From the NCBI GenBank assembly GCA_021432605.1, contig MU271149.1, forward strand, positions 186,001 through 250,000: 64,000 nt of DNA. Reading direction: 5' to 3'. The notes below the pieces were generated by a model. The model was not told the origin of the DNA. It searched no databases and was given only the letters and a program-made list of their open reading frames with translations. Shown in pieces: positions 41,278 through 64,000 of the stretch. Made by a program: the position numbers and the translations under genes. Position 1 is the stretch's first letter. Each line of letters starts with the position of its first letter. The stretch comes from Coniochaeta sp. PMI_546. Its lineage: Eukaryota; Ascomycota; Sordariomycetes; Coniochaetales; Coniochaetaceae.

Positions 41278-44200
41278 ATGCCGATGCTGGAGAATATTGC
41301 ACACAACTACGCAAAGGGTGTCTTTGATGCCACAGCCCAGTACTTCCTCCCCGAAGGTAAAATCGAGAGCCTCGTCACTGCACTTGCTATCAAAAAAGAG
41401 GCTCCTAAGCTTTCGGACGACATCATCCGATGGATCCTAAAGGATGCGAAGAGGCTCTTTGTAATTGGTCTGAAAAGCCTACATAGTAATCCGGATCTCC
41501 TAAAGCCTGCTTTGGAACGATTCAAGGAGATCAAATTTGATGATTCATCCATTCCAATCACCAGTGAGCCGCCTGAAGATAACGAGGACGACGAGACGGA
41601 CACGTCTGATAAGCAGATTTGGGAATCCTTTGGTTGCAAGGGGGTTTGGGGACGTCAACACCTCATTGCATTCCACCAGGAGCAATGGAAATATTTTGCA
41701 CCAGTATTTGAAGATGGGATTTTCCACTACGAACTTTCCGCACATCACATCCTCCCAGTGACTTGGAAACACAAACTAGCCCACGAAGGTGGTTTTGCCA
41801 CAGTCCACAAGGTTGAGATGCACGAGGCGCACCAGAGAATTGGCCCGAAGGGTGGCAAGGGGCCATACAAGACCGTCAGTAGAGAGACAATTTGGCCGCC
41901 CTGATTCTGAGCGTTCCAGATACTTACGCCTTATCACAGCTCGCCATCAAGGCAATCCTACTCGGCCACTCGTCGAGCACGACTGATGAGATATGGGAGA
42001 GAGAGGCAAAAGCCCTCTCTGACACAAACACTATTGACGACAAACACATCATTAAATGTCTGGCTGCGATACGAAGGGGCGAGGATCGCTACTTTGTGTT
42101 TCCGTGGGCCGATGGAGGGACTCTTCGAGATTACTGGAACGAGTCCCCGCAGCATTCCAGAAGGCCCAACGTGATCAAAGAAGCCGTCGAACAGCTCCAT
42201 GGTCTTGCCAATGCCCTGGTAAAATTGCACAACTTCAAGGAGGAGTTAACACCGAGCTCCCAGAAATCTATGCCACATCCAGTCACAGTTTCCGAACCTG
42301 ACAGCGATGGAGGCGCAGTCAGCGTCCAGAGCCCGGACCATGAAGTCGGAGGTGGGCTTCGACATGGGGATTTGAAGCCGGAGAACATTCTTAGGTTCAT
42401 TGAGGACGAGACCGACCAGGACTCTGAGCTGTGTACTCTCAAGATTGCCGATATGGGTCTTGCAAAGCGGCATATATTGGCCACACGGGACCGCCACGGC
42501 GCTACAACTACGATCTACGCGAGCCGACAGTACGAATCACCGGAGCGCGACAGGACCGAGCCATTATCACGGCTGTACGATGTTTGGTCGATGGGTTGCA
42601 TTTCTCTGGATTACATCATCTGGATTCTCTACGGAAACGACGAGCTCACGAGGTTCAACGACGAGATTAAGAGCCGCAGCCAGATCCCTCGCTACTTCCA
42701 CATCCCGGATGGGGAAGGTGCGGCCATCATCAGCCCGGGCGTCCAACGTTGGATGGAGTTCATTCGAACCCACGACCCAGAGTGCCAAAGAGGGAAGGAG
42801 TCGGCAATCAAGGACCTCCTCCACATTATCCAGACACAACTCCTCGTCCCTTCCAAATCCAAGGGGCCGACGCGAGCAAAGGCCTCGCAATTCCGCGAAG
42901 AGCTTGGTAAAATCATGGCCAAGATGAAGAAGGCCGAGCAAGATGGTCATGCTTACGCTCTAATTGCCCCGAATCTAGACATCATCGAGAAAGTTCCGCC
43001 CTCGGAGAAGCTTCTGACTCCAGGTGCAGCCATTCATCACGATAGGTCCTTTCAGGATGTAAGTTGATATCACACCGTGGTTTGACTTCCCCGCAGTCCC
43101 AGAGCATCGCTAATCTTGCCTTTGGCAGTATGTGAGTCGAACCAAGTCGGACCATACAAATACAGCGAGTGGCTGACAAGATCATAGGCTGTACGTATAT
43201 GTTTGATGCTTCAATTAGGTCTGGTTGTGTGAACAGCGTTAACCCAGGGCGTAATTTCATACATGACAGGTTGTAAGTTCAACCAGCCTTTGACTTTAAG
43301 CAGCCGGATCGGTCGAGGGTTAAGCTCAGCTAACTTGGGTATAATTAATCAGCCTGTGCGCGAAACCTTTCGTTGCTAACAAATTCATAACATGCACTTT
43401 ACTCTAATCTGTTGTTGCTTTGATAATAGGATGATCAATGGTACTTCCCAATCGACAACGACTTTACTCGACAGTCTGAAGCTACGAACCTCATTAAAAT
43501 CCTCACGCCGAAGGTGGATTTGGCTCATCTTTGTGATCGATGCCGCCATCTCAGTTTCTGGACAGCGAACTTCAGCTTTGTCCAAGACAAGGCCTCGGAT
43601 TTGGAATCGAAGACGAAATGCGAGTTTTGTCAGATGCTATGGGGCATTTGCAAAGCCAACACGGTCGACAAGAATGCCAGACTCGTGTTCAGCCGCGACA
43701 AGTCTGTTGTGAAGATGGAAGTGGATCTTAATTCTAAGTCTTGGTCGAGAATGGGGAATCACCCTTCATCTATCGCCGCGACTCAACGTTTGAGCGGCAT
43801 CCTTCAGGGTAGAGATCCCGTTATATCACTTTTGCGAGACCGAGGTGAATACATTCTCACTGCGTGGCTCAAAGCTGATGGCTGATGGACTCCCCAGCCT
43901 TGAAACTAGACTCGATCCAGATAGGACTTCCCCGGCTCCCATTGCTTCAAAACGGTCCTGATGGCAGACCGAAGGAGTTCTTCGAGCTTATTCGGCTGTG
44001 GCTTCAAGACTGTGACGAAAAGCACTTTGCCTGTCGGGGCACATCAACAACTCGGTTGCCCACTCGACTTATCCATGTCGGGAAATCTAAAAACGACAAA
44101 ATCACCCTGTATGAGACGACAGAGGACGATCAAATACAGCATAAGCGATTTGGACCCAACAAGTACAGCTATGTCGCTCTGTCTCATCGTTGGGGAGATA

Positions 44201-45567
44201 TCGAGGAGTGCAGGCCTTTTGTTACCTTACCAGAGACACTGGCTATGTTCAAGAAAGACATACCCTCGTCTGGCGATTCTGGCCTCCCGCCTACGTTTCA
44301 ACACGCCGTAGAGGTGACAAGAGGCCTTGGTAAAGAGTACTTGTGGATAGACTCCATTTGCATCCTCCAGGGTCCGAAAGGTGACTTCAAGACTGAGGCA
44401 GAACGTATGGGAGACGTGTTTAGCTCGGCATACTGCGTCATTGCCGCGAGTCGCGCTGTCAACCAAAGGGACGGCTTTCTAAAAGCCCGAGAGGAGAGGA
44501 AATTTCTCAAGTTTCAAACCGGCGGCGGGAAGCCGTTCTACGTGTGTGAGTCAATCGACGACTTCAAGCGAGACGTTCTGGATGGCCCGCTCAACAAGCG
44601 AGGGTGGGTCCTGCAAGAACGAGCGTTGGCTCGCAGGACGATATACTTTACCGAAGTACAAACGTACTTTGAGTGTGGTGAAGGCGTTCGGTGTGAAACC
44701 CTGTCAAAAATCAGGCAGTAAGTCTACCTCTGCACACTGGCCAGCACGCGCGGAGGTTTGGTTGTTCGATCTGCAATGGAATTTGCTAATGGCCATGCCC
44801 GTAGGACTGAGGCCGAGTTTCTGGGCGATCCTAACTTTCCCCAGAAGATCAAGCACAAGACTCGAGGCGTCAAAATTCGAGACTTCACAGGACTATACCA
44901 ACAATATTCTAGGCTTGAAATGACTCGGCCTGATGACCGACCCCGGGCCATTCAAGGACTCGAAAGCAGGCTAGGATCCGCGTACGGAGCTCAGGTTCGG
45001 TTCGGGATCTTTGACGACGGCCCGGACAAAGGATACCTCCACAGGAGCCTCCTGTGGAAACGGGCCGATGACAAGCTGATGGAACCTATTAATTGGGGGA
45101 AGGATCGCCATATCCATGTGCCGACGTGGTCGTGGATGGGCTTCATTGGGGCCATTGAATACCTCTCCTTGGACGGCAACCAGTTTGACTGGGAGAAGAA
45201 CGACATCCACCCCCCGTGGACAGTTGCTGGACGAGACGAACAGTCGCAGGCTGTGCATCTGAAGGCCACGGTCAGACGCTTCGATCTCATGTCATACCAG
45301 CGTCTACAGGAGCAGCAGGACAGTATAACCTACGACATGCAGGTCAACGACGGTCCAACCAAGGGAGAGTGTGTCATTGTCGCCAGGACGAAGGATGGAG
45401 GATTGCGCGTTGCGACAACGCATAAGAAGTACTACATCCTTGTGGTGTCGCCAACGAGCGATACGGCCGCATCCGGGGAAGCAATCTTCAGACGGGTCGG
45501 GGTGGGATGTGTTCTTGATACTGATATCTTGTGGAGCAGACAGGCAATTGCGGCAAGGATATGCTAG
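41278..45567 (+). CDS. Protein kinase-HET domain fusion with one-codon exons
   Basis: Predicted 1241-residue fusion. Exons are 41278-41874, 41940-43058, four single codons (43129-43131, 43188-43190, 43270-43272, 43353-43355), 43430-43844, 43898-44717 and 44805-45567. Residues 1-195 are a helical N-domain ending in WGRQHLIAFHQEQWKYF. The kinase core follows, with LAIK (Lys near 203), HGDLKPENIL (near 341-350), ADMGLAK (DMG replaces DFG), ESPERDR and DVWSMGCISLDYI; catalytic residues are present. After the micro-exon linker comes a Cys-pair motif (CDRC ... CEFC) and a HET domain: YVALSHRWGD, LWIDSICILQ and NKRGWVLQERALA. The HET half has no suitable start of its own, since its first in-frame Met lies after the Cys pairs. 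I infer a death-signalling sensor. It converges on a damaged kinase relative. Confidence 0.78.
43059..43429 (+). other. Five tandem introns separated by four 3-nt exons
   Basis: Between two long coding exons lie introns 43059-43128, 43132-43187, 43191-43269, 43273-43352 and 43356-43429 (70, 56, 79, 80 and 74 bp). They flank single-codon exons TAT, GCT, GTT and CCT. Donors are gtaagt, gtgagt, gtacgt, gtaagt and gtgcgc; each has a branch-like CTAAT/CTGAC/TTAAC/CTAAC and an AG. All junctions are phase 0, so any combination of inclusion and skipping keeps frame. The fourth codon (CCT) has the weakest donor. Treating the whole 371 bp as one intron is the alternative. Confidence 0.6.
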
Positions 45568-45785
45568 ACGGCGTCTAGTGATCTGCGTGGTGCGTTGTGA
45601 GTTCTGTCATCGGGGCCAGAATGGGGATTGAGTTTATATTTCGATGGAAGTTAACCTATGCCTGGCAAAGGTTCGTATTTATGACTATTTAAACCTTCCG
45701 CTAAATTAGGTAGCTATGAAAATTGACTTTCTCGTGTTGATATTCAAGCTGATTCCACAGTCCAGTTCCGGTTGCATGCGTTGGT
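45568..45785. other. Convergent 3' spacer
   Basis: This short AT-rich spacer lies between the stop codons of the kinase-HET gene and the opposing kinase pseudogene. Confidence 0.4.
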
Positions 45786-48458
45786 CTAGCTCCGTTTCGT
45801 AGCATAGGTCTCTCCCTCTTCGCCTTTGCATCTGTGTAGCAATGTTAACAACTTGTCTTGCACTTTCTTACATGAGCTGCGCTTTCGAGGATCCACGACC
45901 AACATCTCACTCTCGATGAGAGAGAGAAAGTCGTGCAGGTAATCGGTACAATTCTGGTGTTTTCGGAGTTCTGTGATAAACTAGTAGAAGTCAATATAAC
46001 GAGCTCCTTCGTACTAGGCTTTCGCCGTCTTGGGGATACGGGCGACGTAGGACTCGCCTCCTTAACTTGCGGCTTCAACTCGGCTTCTTCCTCACCTGGA
46101 CGTTCAATGACCTCGAAGAACACGTCTGTAACCTCCGCCATTAACTTGTCGTCGCTCTTGCGACTCTGGGCGAATGAGTCAACAGAGTCGGGTCCTCCGA
46201 TCGCCCAAGCGACAAATTCTGAATACATGCAACCGAGAGACCATAAGTCGTACGAGGCACGGGTGATGTATGGTTTGATATCGAACTCGGGGGCTCGGTA
46301 CGTGATTGGGTGGGCCAAGTCCTTTCGATGCTTGGACCTGCTCCATTCGGAATTGAGTTCGGCCTGACCGAAATCGGCCAGTTTGAGGGTGCCCAAGCCG
46401 CCGGTACCTTTCCCGTCTTTGTACCTTACCACAGTACGTTTTGCGGCTTGATGTCGCCGTGGCGGCCCCATACTTTCTTCGCCGAGGATAGGTCGCCGGG
46501 ATTCGGGCCACCGGCAGAACGGCTCCCACCCGGCTGTTCAATGTAACATCCACATCTCTGGGTACGTCTAGGGTACGGGAGGAAGCTGGTCGATACACGA
46601 CGTGTAAGCCGAGGTGCAGAGACCAAGCGGCCGGCATCTAATACCAAACTCGCACGGTCCGATCCCTTGTCCTCTGCTCGCGGAGGTAGCATGTGCTCGC
46701 TACCGCATGTACGGTGCCTCCCAAGACTAGGCGGGTTCTTGAACATGTCGCCGGCCGGAAACGGGCTCGATTTCTCTAGGAATGTTGCGTGATGCAAGCG
46801 CACCAGCGCATCAGCAATGCCTTGGCACTGCTCCGCCAGCCAGATCATACGATTGTGACTGCCATCGGCCCTTTCCTTCTTCCAGAATCCAATGAGATCT
46901 GCAGTCGCGCGGCCAAAAACCAGGTAGTACGTATCGAACTGCTCGTACGTTGCTAGCAGTCTCACGACGTGCTTATGGCTGAATCTGCGTAATGCCCGGG
47001 CCTCTATGTGGAAGACCTTCTTGTCCTCATATTCATCCTGCCTTATTTCCTTGACGGCAAACCCGACTTCGCCGTCAGGTCCACTGATCTCTTGGTGGAA
47101 GTTGTGATGTTTGGGGTGCATGTCGATAAAGTGTACGCGGCTGGTGCCCCCGTCTGAGAATCTTTGAGCAATCTTTTTCCTCTCTTCCTTGTTGTTGACG
47201 AATGGCAACGTCTGCCTCTCGAGCAGTGAGTAGTGTTTGACAACATTGAACTCGTCTCGCGAAAAGTACGGCACGGTCACACGCCATTGCATGTCCCCAA
47301 AGCGCTCCAAATCAATCAATGACCATCCACTGAAGCAAGCCAGGATTGCTTCCCTGTTGTTTCTGCGCCTGAGTTGGATGCTTTCGAAGAAGGAAGAGTC
47401 GCCAGCCGCTGCTAGAGGGAGATCCAGATCGCTGACATTGTCGTCGATGAATTGTGTGATCGCCAACGGTTTTTGTGTCATCACCAACGTTGCAAAGGTC
47501 CGTCGGAAAGATCGATACCTCTGTGGGTGCTCTCTAAGCGGCTCGGAGCGACATATCAGATCTGCGAGCTTTTCAATGTCTGCATTCTCCATCTGGCCGA
47601 AGAGCTCCTTGTCCTTCTTGCCGGCGTTGTCAAGCTGATCACATAATTCACGATATACAGCTTCCTTCGTGATTAGACGGTCTATCTCCCCTATGGGACA
47701 AAAAATAGGCGGGCCTATAATCCAGCGACCACGCCCTCACAAGCGCATTAGGAAGCAAGACTTCAAGACCTTCCAGCGGTACGGGTGCCGGCGATAAGCT
47801 GTCTGCTTGAGTTCTCACAGCTGACCGCTTGGATACCGCCCTATCATGTTGATGTATATAATCCTGATGGCCACCATCGCTTACTTGGGAACTCGCTCGT
47901 CCGCTCAAGGCGTCGGGATTATATTCCACAATTCCGAGGAGGCCGCCCCTTATGGATGCTGAATGTTCTTGTACGGTCAGGTATTGCGCCGAGTGACTTA
48001 CACTAGCTTGCTTGCGCTGAAAGTCAGCAGATATCTTAAGATAGGAGAGACTGTCTTGAGCTTACGGCGAGATCTGAGTAGAACTTCTCGATCTTGAGCT
48101 GTGGATCTATGGTGCGTCCAAGTTCCTTCAGATGTGACTCTAGCCTGAGCAACGGATTGCCGCTGACCAGGAGAGTAGGTGCCTCTGTACTCCCTCCAGC
48201 TTTGCACTCTGTGTCCTGTGTGGAAACTAGACCTTCAGCACTCTCTCCTGGTGTCTGGGGCATTATCAGCAGGTCCCTGTGCTGAGGGGAGGATTGACTA
48301 TCAAAGTTGCCAGTGCCTCCATCGTTATGGACCTCCGGCTCCGCAACAAGAGAGGTTAGAGGCCCTGAGTAGCACCCTGTCTCGTGGTCCGATATGCCTG
48401 GTTCGTGAATAGCATGCTGAAGCCGGAGGCTGATCGCTTCTTCCATCTGATTTTGCAT
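45786..48458 (-). pseudogene. Frameshifted protein kinase related to the kinase-HET gene
   Basis: Proposed exons are 48458-48066, 48016-47741, 47685 to about 46428, about 46423-46040 and 45980-45786. The joins at 48017-48065, 47686-47740 and 45981-46039 have acceptable splice sites. The middle encodes the same N-domain pattern as the plus-strand fusion (FGDMQWRVTVPYF). Kinase blocks follow: VGFAVKEIRQ, ALRRFSHKHVVRL, GRHGDIKPQNVLW, then LADFGQAEL, YRAPEFD and YDLWSLGCMYSEF. The last two groups are in different frames: just after the catalytic loop the first frame meets a stop, and the activation-loop half continues in another frame, consistent with a 5-bp insertion (a near-repeat of ggta/aggta). 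No HET domain follows. A sequence error is an alternative. Confidence 0.6.
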
Positions 48459-53348: not shown

Positions 53349-56300
53349 TTAAAGACTAGCCTCATGAGCAACATGAACCGTAACGCCATTCTTCGAATTC
53401 GCAATCGAAATGGGAACCGTCACTACCGTTGCTTTCAAGTTAGAGTCCGTCTGGTACGGCAGGTCCTTGTCCGACGTGACAGTGACCGACGCGAGAGGCG
53501 TCAACGGCTCATGCCAGAAGACAACCCGATAAGTTTGCCCAATGAGATCTTCGAGCGAGCCCTTGTACGCGTTCCAGGGGGAGCGGATGAGGAGACGGCG
53601 GTTCACGCGGACATTCACGTTTTCGTCTTCAGCTGCGATGCGGGTTGTTTTCTGTATAATGTGAGTGGAAATGTTCTGTACAAGAATGGTGGGATAGTGG
53701 TTGTGGTGGTTACCTGAGATATCTTAACGTGAGTAAAGCAGCTATGAGCTTTGGGGTCAACTAGACCGTCAACTAGATCGTGAGCCGTACCGTATCCAGA
53801 CTCAACCGCAGTTTCGGGAACGTAATCGTGGCTTGGGGCGCTGTCCCTGGAGATACCGTCGTCTAGGTACATGTCGTACTCCTGAATTGAGTTAATTAAC
53901 TAACTGTATTCACGACCGAGACATAATATGGACGAACATTATCTTTGCCAGGATAGACATGGATTGTGACCGGATTCACCGGTTGCTTAGCCAAGGATGG
54001 GTCAGGAACATAGTCCCTAACCTCGATCTTGGGAATGATAGCTCCTAAGAAAAAAGATTATCGGCGTTAGTAGTGACTTCGACAGCCACGGACCCGATGT
54101 CAGGTCGTACCTTCGCGGATGTACATAGGACAAGTATACGGTATCTGGCCATCTTGATCACTGATTTGACAGTTATACTGAAGACGACTGCCACCGTCGA
54201 CTTTGTTGAGGAGAGGTATGCCAAGTGGTTCATCCGGCCTAAGGTTCATGGGGAACCATTCGTCAGGATAAGGGAGGTAGATCTTGTGCTGGTCATTTCC
54301 GTTTTTCTCCAGCGCCGGTGCAACAAGAAGGTCGTTGCGGACCATGTACTGGCTACGTGTGTATCGTTGATTCTAGAAAGTGTAAGTAGGACGCCCTTGA
54401 TAAAATATCGATTACTTACGTCATGGGAGAACAGTGACCGGTCAAGCTCGTCTGATATGACCTATGAACCAGTCAGCAGCGGCATAAAACGAAGCAAAAC
54501 AAGATCTTACCATCGCTCGCGCAATCGGCAGCCCTGTCAACATGTTCTCGAACATGGCATCGTACAAGAGCTGCATCAAGCTGTATCGGAGTCGGATGAA
54601 GTAGCGGCAAGTCTTCAAAACACCTCGGTATATCTCGCCGTCACGGCCTTGGAATTGGCCCTGGTTCTGTTCGTAGTGCTGCTGGTAGGCATAAGGCTCT
54701 TGGAAGAGCTTCCCGTCCTTCCGCATCTGCCCTTTCAGTGGTCCGTCCATCCAGTCTCGGTACTTTGTATAGTGATTGCTTTGCCGCAGCGGTCAGCATT
54801 TGTTAGACAAGACCAGAGGCTAGCGTCATTTAAACCACTTACCGGAACCAAGGAAGTAGGGAGTAAGCACAGTACCAGCGGATGATTAGCTCGGGGTCAG
54901 GGTAATCGTGCTCTTGGGGGATGAACTCGAAGCCGCCGACATCAGCACCAGAGATGGTGACACCCGACAACCCAAGAGCCAAGACCTGAGCAACCGAGAT
55001 CTTAAGGAACTCCCAGGTCGACGCGTTGTCTCCTGTCCAGAGGCCGGCATACCTGTGGCTTCCAACGAAGCTGCCGCGTCCGATGATAAAGTTGCGTCGG
55101 TTCTCGCGCCATTTGAGATCGGGGCTGATCTGATCGATTCGGTTAAGGCCGTGGTAGGTTGCCTTGTGCAAGTTGTAGCTGTAAAGAGACCAGATTTCGA
55201 TGGCCTTCTTCTTCTCCGCCGCGTTAGGGTCACCGGACCATCCATCCGAATCCAGGAGCAGGCGGAAGGGAAGGCTTTTTTGACTTAGTTAACAGGAACC
55301 GGATCGAGTGATCCGCCTCACTCCCTAGAACTTGGGATGCACTCACGATTTCATGTCGCCAAACTGCTCAGCAATGCAAGGCGATGTCATGTCCTGCCAT
55401 ACAAAGTCGAGACCACACTCATATAGGTACTGGTATTGCTTACCCCACCACTTGCGCACCTCAATGTTGTTGAGGTTCGGGTAGTGTCCCGGATGGCCGT
55501 TGCCCCAGCCATAGTAGACGCCGCCGTGGAAGGGCTTGCCGCTGTCGAAGACCGCGGCAAAGTCGTAGTTGTCCGGCTCAAAGTAAGGCGGTTTGTCGGT
55601 GATAGGAGCAGTGAAGTAAGTGCTCCCAGTACCGTACTGGAGGTACTTTTGGTCCTGCGCATTTGGAGCTGAGGGATCCCGGTCTCGTTTGTCGACGATG
55701 AAATAATTGTTCGACAGGCCTTCGTTGAGCGTCTTGTACGTTGTTGACGGCATGGAGCTGATGTAGGGCGTGATGTTCGTGCTGCATTTGATGCCTAGCT
55801 GCCGCAGCTTGTCAAACATCTCTTTCGGATTGGGAAAATGGCCAGGCCGAGTGTCAATCGTAAATGTACGGTAATCATCCTGCATGTCGACGTCGATATG
55901 CATCCCGTCAATGGGAAAGCCGCAGGCCCGGTACTGATTAATACAATCAAGAACCATACCCTCATTGTCATAACCGTAGCAGCCCTGATGATATCCAAGG
56001 ACGTATCGTGGCTTAAGTTTAGGTTTCCCAACGATCGAAGTGTAGAGTTGGATGACTTCCTGGATGCTGTCACCGGCCACGAAGATGCCGTGAAAGGCAT
56101 TGAAGCGGGTCGCGATGCGGATACCTGTTTGGTCCGTCATGCCCAAATCGACACAGATGTGAGAGTAATTGTCGATGAAGGTCGCCACCTGAGACCTGTA
56201 CCCCGGTTGAGAATCGACCTCGAGGAAGTAGGGCTCCGAATGGTACAACGGCTCTCTATCGTCCAGGGGTCCGTTTCCGTAGATGTTTTGGTATCTCATA

Positions 56301-57182
56301 TTGTCAAAGTCTACAGTCACGCAGATTCAGCAGAGATGTAGAAAGGATATCGATAGCATATATAAACTTACTGAAATAGTTCATGAACGTCTTCTTCTTG
56401 AAGAGGTTCTTCCCGCCTTGCTCACCGAACCCGATGAAGTCGGCAGTGACAGACTTCTCAACCACGAGAACAGTTGCATTGTCACGATACTGGAGACCTC
56501 GTGACTTCGTCTTCCAGACAATTGCACTTGCTGCGCCGCTGGCTGTCTGGAGTTCGAGTTGCTTGATGCTGTCGCTGTCTAGTAGCTGTAGCTCGGGTAT
56601 CTTCTCCGCCGGCTGTAGGCTCGAAAGGACACGCACGGCAGTGATCTGGAACGGGTCTCTGCGAATCCATAATTGAACCTCAACCTTACGGGTAGGCCCC
56701 GTGGGGTCGCGGACGGACTGGAGGATGTAGTGCTGGGGATCTTTGATGAGCTCGACAGCCCACGTGATACCTTCCACTGCGTCAAGAGTTGCAATGAGCT
56801 TGCTCAAGGTGTCCTCAATGATGGTTCGCCTAGCAGTATTAATACTCGCTTGAAGGGGTCAGCGGAGAATAACGAAACCTTACGAGTTGAAATCGGAGTA
56901 CTGATCCCCTGATTTGACCTTTGGGTCGAATCGAATCCTCCAGACGCGAGGCCTTATGAACTGGATCAAGATAAGAGATCCATCGTTGAAGCGGAGGACG
57001 CGTCCATGGCTGGTTGCTGGATTTGTCTTCTTGTCTGGCAGGAGTTGATCATCGTCTTTATATGATAGCTTGCCCGGCTGTCTCAAGCCGGAGCCCGGAT
57101 TGTCGATATCATGGAAGAAGTCCTCGGCTTTCTTGAATATGTACGGGTCGCGAAACTTCACCTGTTCTCTGTAATCACCCAT
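53349..57182 (-). CDS. GH31 alpha-1,4-glucan lyase-type protein
   Basis: Predicted 1100-residue enzyme in ten exons: 57182-56884, 56829-56372, 56310-55347, 55274-54843, 54778-54511, 54461-54420, 54372-54111, 54044-53938, 53881-53714 and 53651-53349. All joins keep frame. By recalled family sequence it follows fungal and red-algal alpha-1,4-glucan lyases, which release 1,5-anhydro-D-fructose from starch or glycogen by elimination. Matching blocks are LKPRYVLGYHQGCYGYDNEG, DGMHIDVDMQDDYRTF, IKCSTNITPYIS, the nucleophile strand FVWQDMTSP (Asp near 559), GLWTGDNAS (second Asp near 656) and MYLDDGISRDSAP. There is no signal peptide, so it is intracellular, as for those lyases. It is divergent to the dehydratase-like gene. 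Hydrolase activity cannot be excluded from sequence. Confidence 0.88.
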
Positions 57183-58713
57183 GGTGTGTTTGGCGCCTGA
57201 TGAAAATTCTGGATAGATTCTGTCAAGGTTAAGTGAGGATCTGAGATCAAGATCGACTGTCTATTCCATGCGAGTCCGGAAGTCCTTGACTGATATACCT
57301 GGTCCTCTGGATGATGGGTGCTTGAATTTAAGAATCAATGGGACCACGAGTTCATGATAGATATCTAGGAAGAGGAACCAGCCACGGAAGCACGATCAAA
57401 TTCAGCTCTTCGTGATATGCAAATCTGCCGGGTGGGAGACCAGTCGGAAGACTATCCAGCTTCCCACCAACCCTGGATCCCGAGTTTTGCAGCTTTGCGC
57501 ACCATCAGTCGTGGGTCGTGCTTCTCGTCGGTCGTGCTTGCTGTCGGCTGTGTGTTCTCGTGAAGCTGGCTTGCATGCACCCGGGATTGTGGATGCTACC
57601 GCGGCGTTTCAGGGGCTTCAATTGAAGAGTTATCTTGACCAAGACTGTGTTGCCGATCTGATTATAGGGTCGTGAATGTAAGACCCATTACCGCTTACGA
57701 ACGGTCGCAGCGGCAGTGTACGTCTAGCACGGGACTGATCAGCCCATTTCCACAAGCTTTGGACTTGGCTGAATATCACAACAGCTCACCGGTCTCAACT
57801 GGCTCAAGGGATCGTTGTCTGCTGTCCCGATGCATCGCTTACCCCACGCTTGGGCTACCATATCCTATGCTGTGCGACGTCAACCCCGCCCGGAAGCTGT
57901 CCTGTGCACCCTTCTGTCTTCATTGTTGGAAATGAAAGGGGGCACTGGGGATCTCTGGAACCTGCCACGGCGGATTGAATCACAGCAGATCTCAGATGCA
58001 ATGTCGTAAGTCGTGACACCCGCTTCGGATGCATCCTCATGAGCGGGGAAATGGGCCACAGTCAGCATAGCGTGCCTTCCTATGGGGGGACTCATTCTCG
58101 TGGTCTTGCTATTGTATCATTGAGATGGGACTGGATGTTGTTCTTCTTGACGTTCGGAAGCTTCAGCTGGAGACCGAGGAAAGCATCGGGGTCGAGAAAC
58201 ACATAGATGCCATACATCTTGCTGAGTGTTCATGCTCCATTAAGACTCACCATGTGTCCGTTGATCGCTCGCCAAAAGTACAGATTCAGCATCCATCTAC
58301 TTCTGATTCTCGCGTTGGCAACCGAATTTAAGCGAGAGAATGGCCATGGCCTTACCGACCAGCTCTTCGGTAGAGAGTGTTGTAGCACGTAGCGCCTGGC
58401 CACCAAGGTGTGTCGACGACACGGACTTTCTGTGATGATGTATGACGGTCGCAGGTCGAGACGATCAGCGCAACACAAGGAGCGAAGGGCAGTTGGTAGA
58501 TAGTCGTATTCGATCCTGAATCGGTCCGTGAGACGTTCAACACGCGAAAAGGGCGGTCTCTGATTGCCAGGCATGGCGCGTCGGTTCGAGGAAATACGGA
58601 AGGAGTCAGCAATATAAGCGTATTCCGTCGACAACCGGTATTGTCATGTTGTCCCCGAGTGCTACTCAAAGAGTGTAGTGAAGTCAGCCAGACGAACCAC
58701 GGACCATACGAAC
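57183..58713. promoter_or_regulatory. Shared divergent promoter of the anhydrofructose gene pair
   Basis: This 1.5 kb lies between the two starts and contains no convincing gene. Two matches to the CreA carbon-repressor core SYGGRG are visible: CTGGGG at 57946-57951 and its reverse CCCCAC at 57842-57847. The motif is short and will occur by chance. An imperfect repeat of tcgtgctt lies near 57515-57545. Glucose repression of the pair is inference only. Confidence 0.4.
58613..58618 (+). promoter_or_regulatory. Candidate TATA box of the dehydratase-like gene
   Basis: TATAAG lies 96 bp upstream of the ATG at 58714, a typical distance for a fungal promoter with a short leader. Confidence 0.35.
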
Positions 58714-61672
58714 ATGGCTGAGAGACGCAAGGCAGTCCCCGTTCCGGTCTTCGAGAGCACTGTGATTGACGGTGACAGGCAAGATGGCTACTGGGTGGAA
58801 ACCTTCCACTTCAGTACTGCCGACAAGATTCCAGGGGTTATCACGTACGCCATTCGTCCTGCATGAAGTAAGTGAACGTGCTAACTGGAAGATAGATCCG
58901 GGCTGGTTTCTGGCAAGGTGGAATTCCTCGACAATCCCATGGCAGATGCTCATCATTCCGGCACAACTGCTCTAGAGGATCCTTCTGGATGTGAGCAAGC
59001 CCATCGTCTTGGCAAAGCATCGAGAGTGCTGATATGTCTTAGCGTGGACCAAATATGAGATTGCAAAATTCGACTCTCCTGTCGCTGTGGTCGCTGTTGA
59101 TGTCAGTGGCAATGGACTAACCGATGTGCTTGTCTGCCATGACTACGGCCCCTTCATGCTTGAGTGCAATCCCAAGGGAGGTTGGATCACCTGGCTCGAG
59201 AATCCGGGCCGGGATAACTTGAAGCAAAATCCAGAAAATCCAGGAGACAATCATTGGAAACAACGCGATATCGGGCGATGGCCTGCCATGCATAGGATGC
59301 GAGCGGGATATTTCACGCAAAAGTACCCAGACCACGTACCCTTTCCGCTCAAGTCCTCCTCACTGACAATGTGATCCGCACAGGTCATATCTTGAGGTTA
59401 TTGCTGCTTCGGTGGTATATGGCCCGCATGATAAGGTATGGCCTCGTGGTTCTTGGCAAGATCAACATATGATGGATATAGAAGCTAATGATGCTGCAGA
59501 TCACACCCATTCCAATCATCTTGTTTCAAGCACCCGAGAAAGTGCTTGAGGCGTGAGTTAACCTTGCTCCGTAACATGCCTCACGATGCCTAACTTGTGC
59601 CAAGTACCGAGTGGTCCAGAACTGTCGTCGACGATGAACATTTCACAGTCATCCATGAGGTGACGCAGAAGAAGTCTTTACACCCCCTTCAAGCCGAAGA
59701 AGTTCATGATTGACGCCTTTTTAGGTATGATGGACCGAATGGCTTAGAGTCCTTAATGGTATCCTCCCGCGAGGGTACCACCTGGCTGCACTTCGAGGAT
59801 GGCGCCTGGCACAGAACGTTGATTGGCATCGGTCAACCAAAAGAACCTCGTCAATCGCCAACGACCGAGTCACCCGGCTCCGGGGATCACTGGGGTGCCG
59901 GTTGTGCAGACGGGGGTGCTATCGGAAACGACCCTTTTGCGTATATCGCTACCCTCGACCCATTCCACGGCATAGCTGCCTGTGTGTATACCAAGGTGGA
60001 ACGTGGCATTAAGGATGCGAAATGGCAGAGGCAGGTTCTGGATGTTTATGGTACCCCAAACCAGCTGCAGAAAACTGGAGATGGACCGGGCCACTATATC
60101 GTCTGCGCTGACTTTGATGGTAAGTAAGGCTCCGTGCCATTTGGCAGCCGGTTAAGGATGCGGTCAAGCTGAAACTGCCCAGGAGACGGAGACGACGAGT
60201 TCCTGCTGTCACTCTTTGGTCCGTTGGACAGAGACGAAAGTGGGGAGTCGATACCTGTAAGCTTTCCCCATCTCAAGGAAATCTTCTGAGGACCTGCGAG
60301 CCCTAGGGAAGCTAATGAATGTTGTGATAGCCGCCACAGGGTCCACACCCGGAGAAAGGCATCATGTACTACAAGGCCATTGATCTCAAGAAAGGCCTTT
60401 TTGCAAAATGGAGGATTGCCGAAGAATCATCTGCCCGCATCGCAATTGGGTTTGTGTTCTTCCTCCGTGTGAAATATCGCCGGATCTCCCAACTGATGTT
60501 TTTCTTTAGTAACTTTGGTGGAAACGGAAATCTTGACCTTGTTTCCATCGGGTATAACGTCGCGAGATATTATGAAGAGCCTAACCCTGTCGTGACTCTA
60601 CATCTGAACAAGACCACAAAGCCGCAAGCACAGATTACGCAGAGTCCAATCGTCCCAACTGTGTGGGACGACGAGGGGCTCGTGTATCTTGCCCTTCCAG
60701 GAACGGTGTCAAGCGCCCAGTCTCTGTCGCTCATCGAGATAGCCAACTATGCCTTAACTGTGGAGATACATCCACCAGGTAGCAAGATTCTCATAGACAC
60801 GGGCGAGGGAGTCAAAGTGTTGTACGGCTCCATTGCAGACATCAACGGCCCACGCAAGCCTCTAGGTGTACCTGCTTTTCCCACCCTCGCGTCCACCAAC
60901 AGTGACGACTCGAGTCTTAGCGCTGATGGCGACAACGGAGCCATTCTACTTCGATTAACTCCAATCAATGACATGGAGCCGGGAGAGTGGTCTACTGCCG
61001 ATGAGGTGCCGGTGCGTACGACATTCGATACTAGTGGACTTGGCTTCGAGCTCAAGCCACTCGCTTTCACAAAGGTCGAGGATCTTTGGTGGGGAGAGCC
61101 GTTCAAAGGGCTGGACTTCTATAACATGAGTGGCTTCCATTTCCGGTTTCTGCATGATAAGAGTCAGATCGCGCACTTGCAGTTCTGGACAGCCGGTAGG
61201 TTCTCAACTTCTCCCTTCCGTCTGATCGCAAATATGTCAGGAAACTGGTACTAACATGACGAACGAAGGCACGGGAGTGAACTGCGGAGTGCATAACCAC
61301 ACCGACTCCATCTTCCAGGAGATTCACATCTGCCTCTCAGCTGGAACAGGAGATGGTGGCCTGTCTCGCCTCAAAGATGACTATGAGGATACTCCACCTT
61401 CCAAGGTCCCCGACCTGGACGACAGCACCTTTGACCACGTGCCGCTTCCTGTGCTCTACGAGCACGGTGGCCTCTGGTATCGTGACTCATATGACGAGCC
61501 GATTCGTGGGAAGAACAACATTGTGGCATATCCATGGCACAAATGGCAAGCGGGTAGCGGGGTCAATGTTGATGTGTGGTTGGCACTGGAGTTCAATCCT
61601 GATCTCGACGTAGGTGAGGCGTCCGAGACACAAGTCGGCCAGCGTCTGCCCACGAGATTCCAACCTCGTTGA
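58714..61672 (+). CDS. Aldos-2-ulose / 1,5-anhydro-D-fructose dehydratase-like protein
   Basis: Predicted 785-residue protein in eleven exons: 58714-58844, 58896-58990, 59043-59322, 59384-59435, 59500-59552, 59605-59673, 59725-60119, 60183-60256, 60331-60449, 60510-61195 and 61269-61672. The pattern matches, from memory, Phanerochaete aldos-2-ulose dehydratase: an FG-GAP-like beta-propeller (AVDVSGNGLTDVLVCHDYG; CADFDGDGDDEFLLSLFG; IGNFGGNGNLDLVSIG) followed by a cupin-like part with GVHNHTDSIFQEIH (metal-binding His/Glu) and AYPWHKWQAGSG. PAMHRMRAGYF is another shared block. The enzyme dehydrates 1,5-anhydro-D-fructose or glucosone to pyrones (ascopyrone M/microthecin, cortalcerone). There is no signal peptide. 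It is shorter than the basidiomycete enzyme at the C-terminus. Exon 6's donor (gtcttt) is weak. Confidence 0.82.
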
Positions 61673-63112: not shown

Positions 63113-64000
63113 ATGAGCACCTCCCTTTCCTTAATCCAGTATGTCTTGTGCATACTAGGTGGAACCTTCACGGTCCACTCACACGGCATTATGAATGCGC
63201 CACACCCTTATAATCTTCATACAAAACCTCTGCTTCAGACTGATCCTCTCGGCAAAGAACCCCAATACCTCCCATTTCCTTGTCAAGGGCGCTTCGACGT
63301 CGAGCAGAGAACATCGATTACCGCTGGAGAACATGTTTTTGGGAATTTCACCATCGGCGCTGACCACCATGGTGGATCATGCCAGTTCAGCGTCACCTAC
63401 GAGGACCCTCCACCGAAAGACAAGTCGAAGTGGAAGGTAATCTACACAATAATTGGCGGCTGTCCTGCATCATCAACTGCGCCTATTGAACAACTGCTTC
63501 CTGTAAGTGGCCAGGACTCCGAGTCCCGGCAGGCTATACAGAACTGCGGTGACGATTCAGATGACAATGAAGACTGCGTCCGGCATTTCAACATCCCTTT
63601 CCCCCGAGATATGCCAAACGGCAATGCAACCTTTGCTTGGACGTGGTTCAACTCAGTTGGCCATCGGGAGATGTATATGTAAGGCTTGCTGGGCGAGTAT
63701 CGTGACAGTCCTGACTTTGGCTATAGGAACTGTGCTCCGATCTTGGTACAGGGCGGGTCAAACAATAGATCCTTTTTCGACAGCGACAGCCTTCCTCAGA
63801 TGTTTGTCGCCAACATCGAGGGCGAATGCAGCACTACAGAAGGAATACTATATTTTCCGAACCCGGGCAAGTACGGCAAAGTTCTTCAGGAAAGCGAAGA
63901 CAAATTGGGGGACCCAAATGGGCAGGGAAGCTGTGGAGTTGCAACTCTCCCGACATTCGAGAATATCGACCACAACGGCTCTTCGGTTCACCCTAGCAGC
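63113..64000 (+). CDS. Secreted LPMO-like copper protein (partial, AA11-like)
   Basis: The 5' part of a secreted protein; the window ends inside exon 2. Exons are 63113-63678 and 63727 onward; the splice joins REMY-M-NCAPI. The signal peptide (MSTSLSLIQYVLCILGG...) ends at HS, leaving mature HGIMNAPHPYN with His1, the first ligand of an LPMO copper brace. Further features are FPCQGR, DHHGGSCQFSVTYEDPPP, IIGGCP, FAWTWFNSVGHREMYMNCAP and paired cysteines. This pattern is known from fungal LPMO-like proteins near AA11 (chitin-active); the exact AA family is uncertain. It would act outside the cell on chitin or another polysaccharide. It lies downstream of the dehydratase-like gene on the same strand. 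Confidence 0.8.

Follow-up and report, generated by a model that had tools for sequence, protein, structure and literature searches.

We analysed a 64,000-nucleotide stretch of the genome of the ascomycete Coniochaeta sp. PMI_546 (contig MU271149.1, positions 186,001 to 250,000), referred to here as the window and numbered from its first letter. At 53349-61672 it holds two open, divergent and intron-rich genes with facing start codons, as judged from spliced, predicted models. One encodes a protein of family GH31 and the other an aldos-2-ulose dehydratase (AUDH). The sequence evidence makes it highly likely that the window carries a two-enzyme unit, with predicted reaction, substrate and product, that would lead from glycogen or starch through 1,5-anhydrofructose to microthecin.

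The divergent gene pair and its AUDH

Both gene models were drawn by eye, following open reading frames and splice signals (Table 1). Their ends match the coordinates and head-to-head layout given in an initial annotation of this DNA, and the 1.5 kb that it placed between the genes measures 1,531 bp. The nine introns of the GH31 gene (47-72 bp) and the ten of the AUDH gene (51-74 bp) all run GT..AG. The stretch between the start codons is a candidate shared promoter, through which the pair may be co-regulated.

Table 1. Features of the gene pair in the window, with the related Rhizobium loci
Feature	Position	Strand	Details or basis
Lyase-type GH31 gene (predicted)	53349..57182	-	ATG 57182, stop 53349; 10 exons; 1,100 aa; internal stops 0
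GH31 exons 1-5	57182-56884, 56829-56372, 56310-55347, 55274-54843, 54778-54511	-	Spliced model
GH31 exons 6-10	54461-54420, 54372-54111, 54044-53938, 53881-53714, 53651-53349	-	Spliced model
Codon of N431 (= N459 of the G. lemaneiformis lyase)	55775..55777	-	Alignment; codon position by hand from exons
Codon of D559, predicted catalytic nucleophile, VWQDMT (= D553 of the algal lyase)	55391..55393	-	Alignment
Codon of D656, predicted general acid/base, WTGDN	55028..55030	-	Conserved position in alignment; codon by hand
Intergenic region between both start codons, candidate shared promoter	57183..58713	.	1,531 bp; coordinates of both models
AUDH gene (predicted)	58714..61672	+	ATG 58714, stop 61672; 11 exons; 785 aa; internal stops 0
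AUDH exons 1-6	58714-58844, 58896-58990, 59043-59322, 59384-59435, 59500-59552, 59605-59673	+	Spliced model
AUDH exons 7-11	59725-60119, 60183-60256, 60331-60449, 60510-61195, 61269-61672	+	Spliced model
Cupin motif HNHTDSIFQEIH (H-x-H ... E-x-H), likely metal site	61292..61327	+	Alignment
Algal-lyase relative with upstream AUDH-type cupin gene	L071:10534-15201		Rhizobium sp. NLR16a plasmid p4
Same lyase/cupin pair	NZ_CP098802.1:290807-295473		R. anhuiense plasmid

The plus-strand protein matches the AUDH structure 4a7k over residues 6-760 (E 3.8e-114), and 4a7k was the sole distinct Protein Data Bank (PDB) sequence to match it at E <= 0.001. A single chain carries both AUDH domains of Pfam, the propeller PF22301 (E 2e-71) followed by the cupin PF18637 (E 1.4e-109). 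The two histidines, the glutamate and the final histidine of the cupin motif were invariant in all six AUDH-type cupins aligned (two fungal, four bacterial), and the motif probably binds a metal. By these sequence tests the protein is a full-length AUDH, in agreement with the AUDH-like dehydratase of the initial annotation; the full-length match, extending beyond FG-GAP resemblance alone, speaks against an FG-GAP protein unrelated to the dehydratase.

AUDH loci with a GH31 neighbour in bacteria

A scan with an AUDH alignment, taking one genome per species across 84,980 prokaryote species, returned at least 53 loci. Addition of two of three plasmid matches gave 55, of which we kept 44 in which the propeller was clear, scoring 137 bits or more (one of them is partial), and left out 11 whose propeller scored at most 78 bits; all counts over the 44 loci are among the matches listed. 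In three of them, from Paenibacillus filicis (L003), the cyanobacterium Vasconcelosia minhoensis (L004) and a Gastranaerophilales metagenome-assembled genome (MAG; L038), a GH31 gene adjoins an AUDH that is split over two genes, one for the propeller and one for the cupin. The linked GH31 proteins, of 1,009-1,030 aa, are 42-45% identical to that of the window by alignment and 40-42% by tblastn. Their genes lie 30-88 bp from the AUDH genes, and all gene gaps in the clusters measure 6-88 bp. Single bacterial cupins fell below the cut-off of the Pfam AUDH_Cupin model; a profile of six of them, those of the three clusters included, was homologous to the fungal AUDH cupin half (hhalign probability 95.5, E 1.3e-8).

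The genes of the three clusters are intron-free and stand in a different order in each. Order has been shuffled yet proximity kept, which argues for selection rather than for one frozen arrangement; one transfer of a linked cassette, rearranged later, is a possible source of all three. The repeated partnership in distant bacteria suggests a genuine two-step pathway unit. The pairing, which the initial annotation described for this ascomycete, is also found in bacteria and is not only fungal. The clusters lie on contigs of 7.8-22.6 kb, so their assignment to the named organisms could be wrong. A scan of IMG/VR with AUDH found no relatives, and a search of phage records with the propeller part gave no matches. 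In L003 a scan for promoters gave 10 sites and one for terminators 7, where shuffled sequence averaged 8.6 and 5.8; neither count exceeds chance expectation.

Three points weigh against the two-gene reading. The clusters were found through AUDH, and their adjacency is therefore partly ascertained. In 41 of the 44 loci nothing within the stretch examined matched GH31 at E up to 1e-4, and AUDH therefore also works with other partners. Lastly, the AUDH tree did not fix the place of the window protein (support 51/91). Descent of the window AUDH with the lyase-linked bacterial AUDHs was considered, as L003 and L004 are nearest by path, but was dropped at that support.

Two other gene contexts of AUDH were observed. 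The propeller and cupin occur with a UDP-GlcNAc 2-epimerase relative (PF02350) in 16 of the 44 loci, and the same context includes relatives of a berberine-bridge-type (BBE) FAD oxidase in 14 loci and of an acyltransferase in nine. It is found in Streptomyces, Arthrobacter, Brevibacterium, Paraburkholderia, Celeribacter and others, for example at L030:6766-14108, the one locus on which the families were checked with Pfam; the set looks like an unfamiliar biosynthetic cluster acting on an amino sugar. At L002, L011, L015, L019, L023, L031 and L033, the propeller is near a GMC oxidase, a ferritin-like protein (PF12902) and a GH63-like protein (Pfam-checked on L023 only). This second recurring context is possibly fed by a pyranose-oxidase-like enzyme.

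A GMC oxidase would also matter if the lyase were real and the window AUDH instead served glucosone formed by a pyranose oxidase that is encoded at another genomic site, its adjacency to the lyase being incidental. AUDH is said, in work by Koths of 1992 (cited in PMC11650716), to act with pyranose 2-oxidase in a route from glucose to cortalcerone, and a Persicobacter-type GMC oxidase lies in eight of the 44 bacterial loci, one of them the query's own source. However, none occurred among the 11 Pfam-scanned open reading frames (ORFs) of the window outside the pair (many shorter exons lay outside that scan), and the linkage of lyase and AUDH recurs in distant bacteria. We regard the cortalcerone route as a very improbable account of this AUDH, and prefer its pairing with the neighbouring GH31 protein.

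The GH31 protein: lyase or hydrolase

The minus-strand protein contains the GH31 domain PF01055 (E 1.5e-66, Pfam), and its best solved relative among PDB sequences is the alpha-1,4-glucan lyase 2x2h (E 2.9e-45). According to a 2025 review (PMC12441222, section 3.1), the nucleophile D553 of GH31 lyases is aided by N459, the lyase determinant, where glycosidases have isoleucine. We mapped N459 to TNIT of the 2x2h sequence by hand count on the pairwise alignment (both residues shifted by 11), and N431 is its counterpart in the window. At this position all six lyase-type rows of our alignment carry Asn, and the 13 hydrolase-type rows carry Ile (12) or Val (1). The nucleophile motif reads WQDMT in the window, its three bacterial relatives and 2x2h, and WQDMA in a protein from Rhizobium; it reads WxDMNE in 11 of the 13 hydrolase-type rows. 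D656 is presumably the general acid/base.

A maximum-likelihood tree of 19 rows gave the same division. A branch with 100/100 support parts the six lyase-type rows (the window, the three AUDH-linked bacterial proteins, 2x2h and Rhizobium) from the 13 hydrolase-type rows, and within the former 2x2h joins Rhizobium and the window joins the three bacterial proteins, each at 100/100. The window protein, in other words, did not group with ordinary alpha-glucosidases. The published Asn criterion says more on lyase identity than does the margin among PDB matches. Taken together, these comparisons indicate that the minus-strand protein is a lyase-type GH31, probably splitting starch or glycogen into 1,5-anhydrofructose, and the glucan-lyase-type GH31 of the initial annotation is sustained by its closest solved relative, by Asn431 and by WQDMT.

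The lyase-cupin pairing was also found independently of AUDH. A plasmid search with a bacterial GH31 query led to the Rhizobium GH31, which matches 2x2h at E 3e-127 and the next PDB chain at 8.1e-22. The gene 33 bp upstream encodes 406 aa, the second half of which is an AUDH-type cupin (tblastn E 2e-24; HxH...ExH motif), sub-threshold against the Pfam AUDH cupin (E 0.042). In R. anhuiense the matches of both proteins are adjacent, 40 bp apart. No match to the AUDH propeller was found in the 27 kb examined near the Rhizobium lyase. Both lyase subclades therefore include members with AUDH-related neighbours.

Lyase-type GH31 proteins of the window's subclade are rare in the genomes searched. Of the 42 AUDH genomes, 24 were searched, and among these strong matches occurred only in the three seed genomes (1,832-1,907 bits, versus at most 162 elsewhere), and 1,901 genome searches, partly overlapping, gave none above 1,800 bits outside these three. 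The wider groups comprised Cyanobacteriota (292 genomes), the family of Paenibacillus filicis (104), the class of the Gastranaerophilales MAG (240), Bacteroidota (296), Pseudomonadota (299), Bacillota (249), Planctomycetota (199) and Actinomycetota (198). The best non-seed match among those listed reached 213.5 bits, and the 16 of 17 listed runners-up that were inspected (L072-L087) all carry WNDMNEP and none TNIT. The E cut-offs were 0.001 for AUDH genomes and 1e-100, 1e-60 or 1e-50 for the wider groups, with the best few candidates per genome scored; two empty search sets had no positive control, and Rhizobium-type lyases could slip past the strict cut-offs. Given the rarity of the subclade, a triple adjacency by chance is unlikely.

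Several results nevertheless pull away from lyase identity. The lead of 2x2h over maltase-glucoamylase (9.1e-42) and alpha-glucosidase II (1.8e-39) is modest and alone insufficient to settle the matter, and the Gastranaerophilales relative scores slightly higher against a maltase-glucoamylase chain (3.6e-65, counted over two catalytic domains) than against 2x2h (6.2e-62). In the tree, three PDB rows are fragments and an odd letter make-up was flagged in 11 of the 19 rows. A five-row lyase clade that leaves out Rhizobium, named before the tree was built, was rejected as a clade (p-AU 1.08e-5), since the tree places the Rhizobium row within this group, beside 2x2h.

Could the GH31 protein then be an ordinary alpha-glucosidase, or alpha-xylosidase, that lies beside AUDH by chance? 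Hydrolases and lyases of GH31 have a common fold and common Asp residues, the two glucosidases just named score little below the lyase, and GH31 hydrolases yield trace 1,5-anhydrofructose as a by-product (PMC12441222). Such a protein would, however, be hard to reconcile with Asn431 and WQDMT, with the 100/100 branch or with the repeated AUDH linkage in bacteria. We consider it very improbable and retain the lyase.

The usual splice donor follows a GTRNGT-like consensus, and intron 6 of the AUDH gene has the poor donor GTCTTT at 59674. An in-frame alternative, 59660-59749, drops 13 residues and scores below the chosen model against all 44 AUDH propellers. That the pair is no longer functional, for instance through an unspliceable intron 6, is scarcely credible, since the other exons are all open, the protein matches 4a7k along its length and the in-frame alternative exists.

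The predicted route and its relation to known systems

In the proposed route, the GH31 protein would release the glucose units of glycogen or starch by an elimination rather than by hydrolysis; Asp559 would form a glucosyl intermediate, which would collapse, with help from Asn431, to the enol of 1,5-anhydro-D-fructose (mechanism as in PMC12441222, residues mapped here). The AUDH would dehydrate and isomerise 1,5-anhydrofructose, passing through ascopyrone M and ending at the pyrone microthecin. Microthecin is the end product of AUDH itself. Ascopyrone M was reportedly described by Claesson in 2012 (cited in PMC8023676) as an intermediate for AUDH acting on 1,5-anhydrofructose. The "complete" anhydrofructose pathway of the initial annotation would accordingly stand for the route to microthecin; we do not extend it to the ascopyrone tautomerase step.

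Neither protein has an N-terminal hydrophobic stretch, the best 15-residue Kyte-Doolittle mean within the first 50 residues being -0.55 for GH31 and 0.70 for AUDH. The absence of signal peptides stated in the initial annotation holds on this simple hydropathy test, which points to a probable cytosolic location of both proteins. None of the nine proteins encoded in the three bacterial clusters has a strongly hydrophobic N-terminus either, which fits an intracellular route. With no obvious signal peptide, the cell's own glycogen would be the likely feedstock. A morel data set speaks against this location: of the three GH31 proteins that it lists under the name glucan lyase, two have a Y in what is presumably its signal-peptide column (PMC8185036), and fungal lyases therefore need not be cytosolic.

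The substrate would likely be intracellular glycogen, and the route would likely serve to convert stored sugar into an antimicrobial or antioxidant compound. According to PMC12441222, fungi convert 1,5-anhydrofructose to ascopyrone and microthecin, which are antibacterial; the same paper suggests an alternative role in which carbon is locked in a form unusable by others. The biological role here may thus be an antibacterial or antioxidant pyrone, or carbon locking.

We give roughly an even chance to the broader idea that lyase and dehydratase form an old mobile cassette of bacteria and fungi, split and shuffled in bacteria, with AUDH fused in fungi, placed head to head with the lyase gene in the window, and serving as an exchangeable module. 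If so, bacteria would make microthecin-type pyrones from glycogen, of which we found no description, and AUDH would be fed in different clusters by a lyase, a GMC oxidase or a UDP-GlcNAc epimerase/BBE oxidase set.

Left of the pair, the nearest identified gene encodes adenylosuccinate lyase (Pfam ADSL_C and Lyase_1), and the next long ORF on the right has no Pfam match. No third pathway gene was found among the 11 scanned ORFs outside the pair, a scan that shorter exons fell outside and that included no search aimed at ascopyrone tautomerase. Elsewhere in the window, the ORF at 63113-63682, with no Pfam match, has a hydrophobic N-terminus followed by HGIMNAPHPY and recalls a secreted lytic polysaccharide monooxygenase. 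At 41892-47592, two kinase-like ORFs (one below the Pfam cut-off) near a HET-domain ORF (PF06985) recall fungal non-self recognition loci.

The anhydrofructose pathway is, to our knowledge, known mainly from enzyme activities, with its genes, spread and purpose poorly mapped. Characterised fungal glucan lyases include those of Morchella, Peziza and Anthracobia. The initial annotation held that each enzyme type was known separately; this is not quite right, for a 2004 paper by Yu (cited in PMC12441222) reportedly describes all three of a glucan lyase, an anhydrofructose dehydratase and an ascopyrone tautomerase in the single fungus Anthracobia melaloma. Physical linkage offers a genetic handle that simplifies knock-outs, co-expression and metabolite tests. 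The recurrence in bacteria hints that these may be a source of antimicrobials resembling microthecin, and the loci supply new candidates, both lyases and dehydratases in split form, for the production of 1,5-anhydrofructose and ascopyrones.

Three known systems are closest. The Gracilariopsis lemaneiformis alpha-1,4-glucan lyase (2x2h, GH31, EC 4.2.2.13) shares with the window protein the GH31 domain, WQDMT, the Asn of TNIT and LPWFRNHY; it differs in being only 29% identical over the aligned part and in falling with Rhizobium in the sister subclade, whereas the window protein falls with the three AUDH-linked bacterial proteins. The Phanerochaete chrysosporium AUDH/isomerase (4a7k) is homologous to the window AUDH over its full length, with propeller and cupin in one protein and the cupin HxH...ExH, at 36% identity. 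The ascomycete pathway of Anthracobia melaloma and morels likewise runs from glucan lyase to dehydratase (PMC12441222), and microthecin is listed among morel compounds in PMC9016275; unlike the gene pair of the window, that pathway was described by enzyme purification or metabolites. We found no report of a lyase-AUDH gene pair in the open-licence papers searched, which is weak evidence of novelty. Compared with these systems, the enzymes and the pathway are known, and the linked gene pair and the split bacterial form are apparently new.

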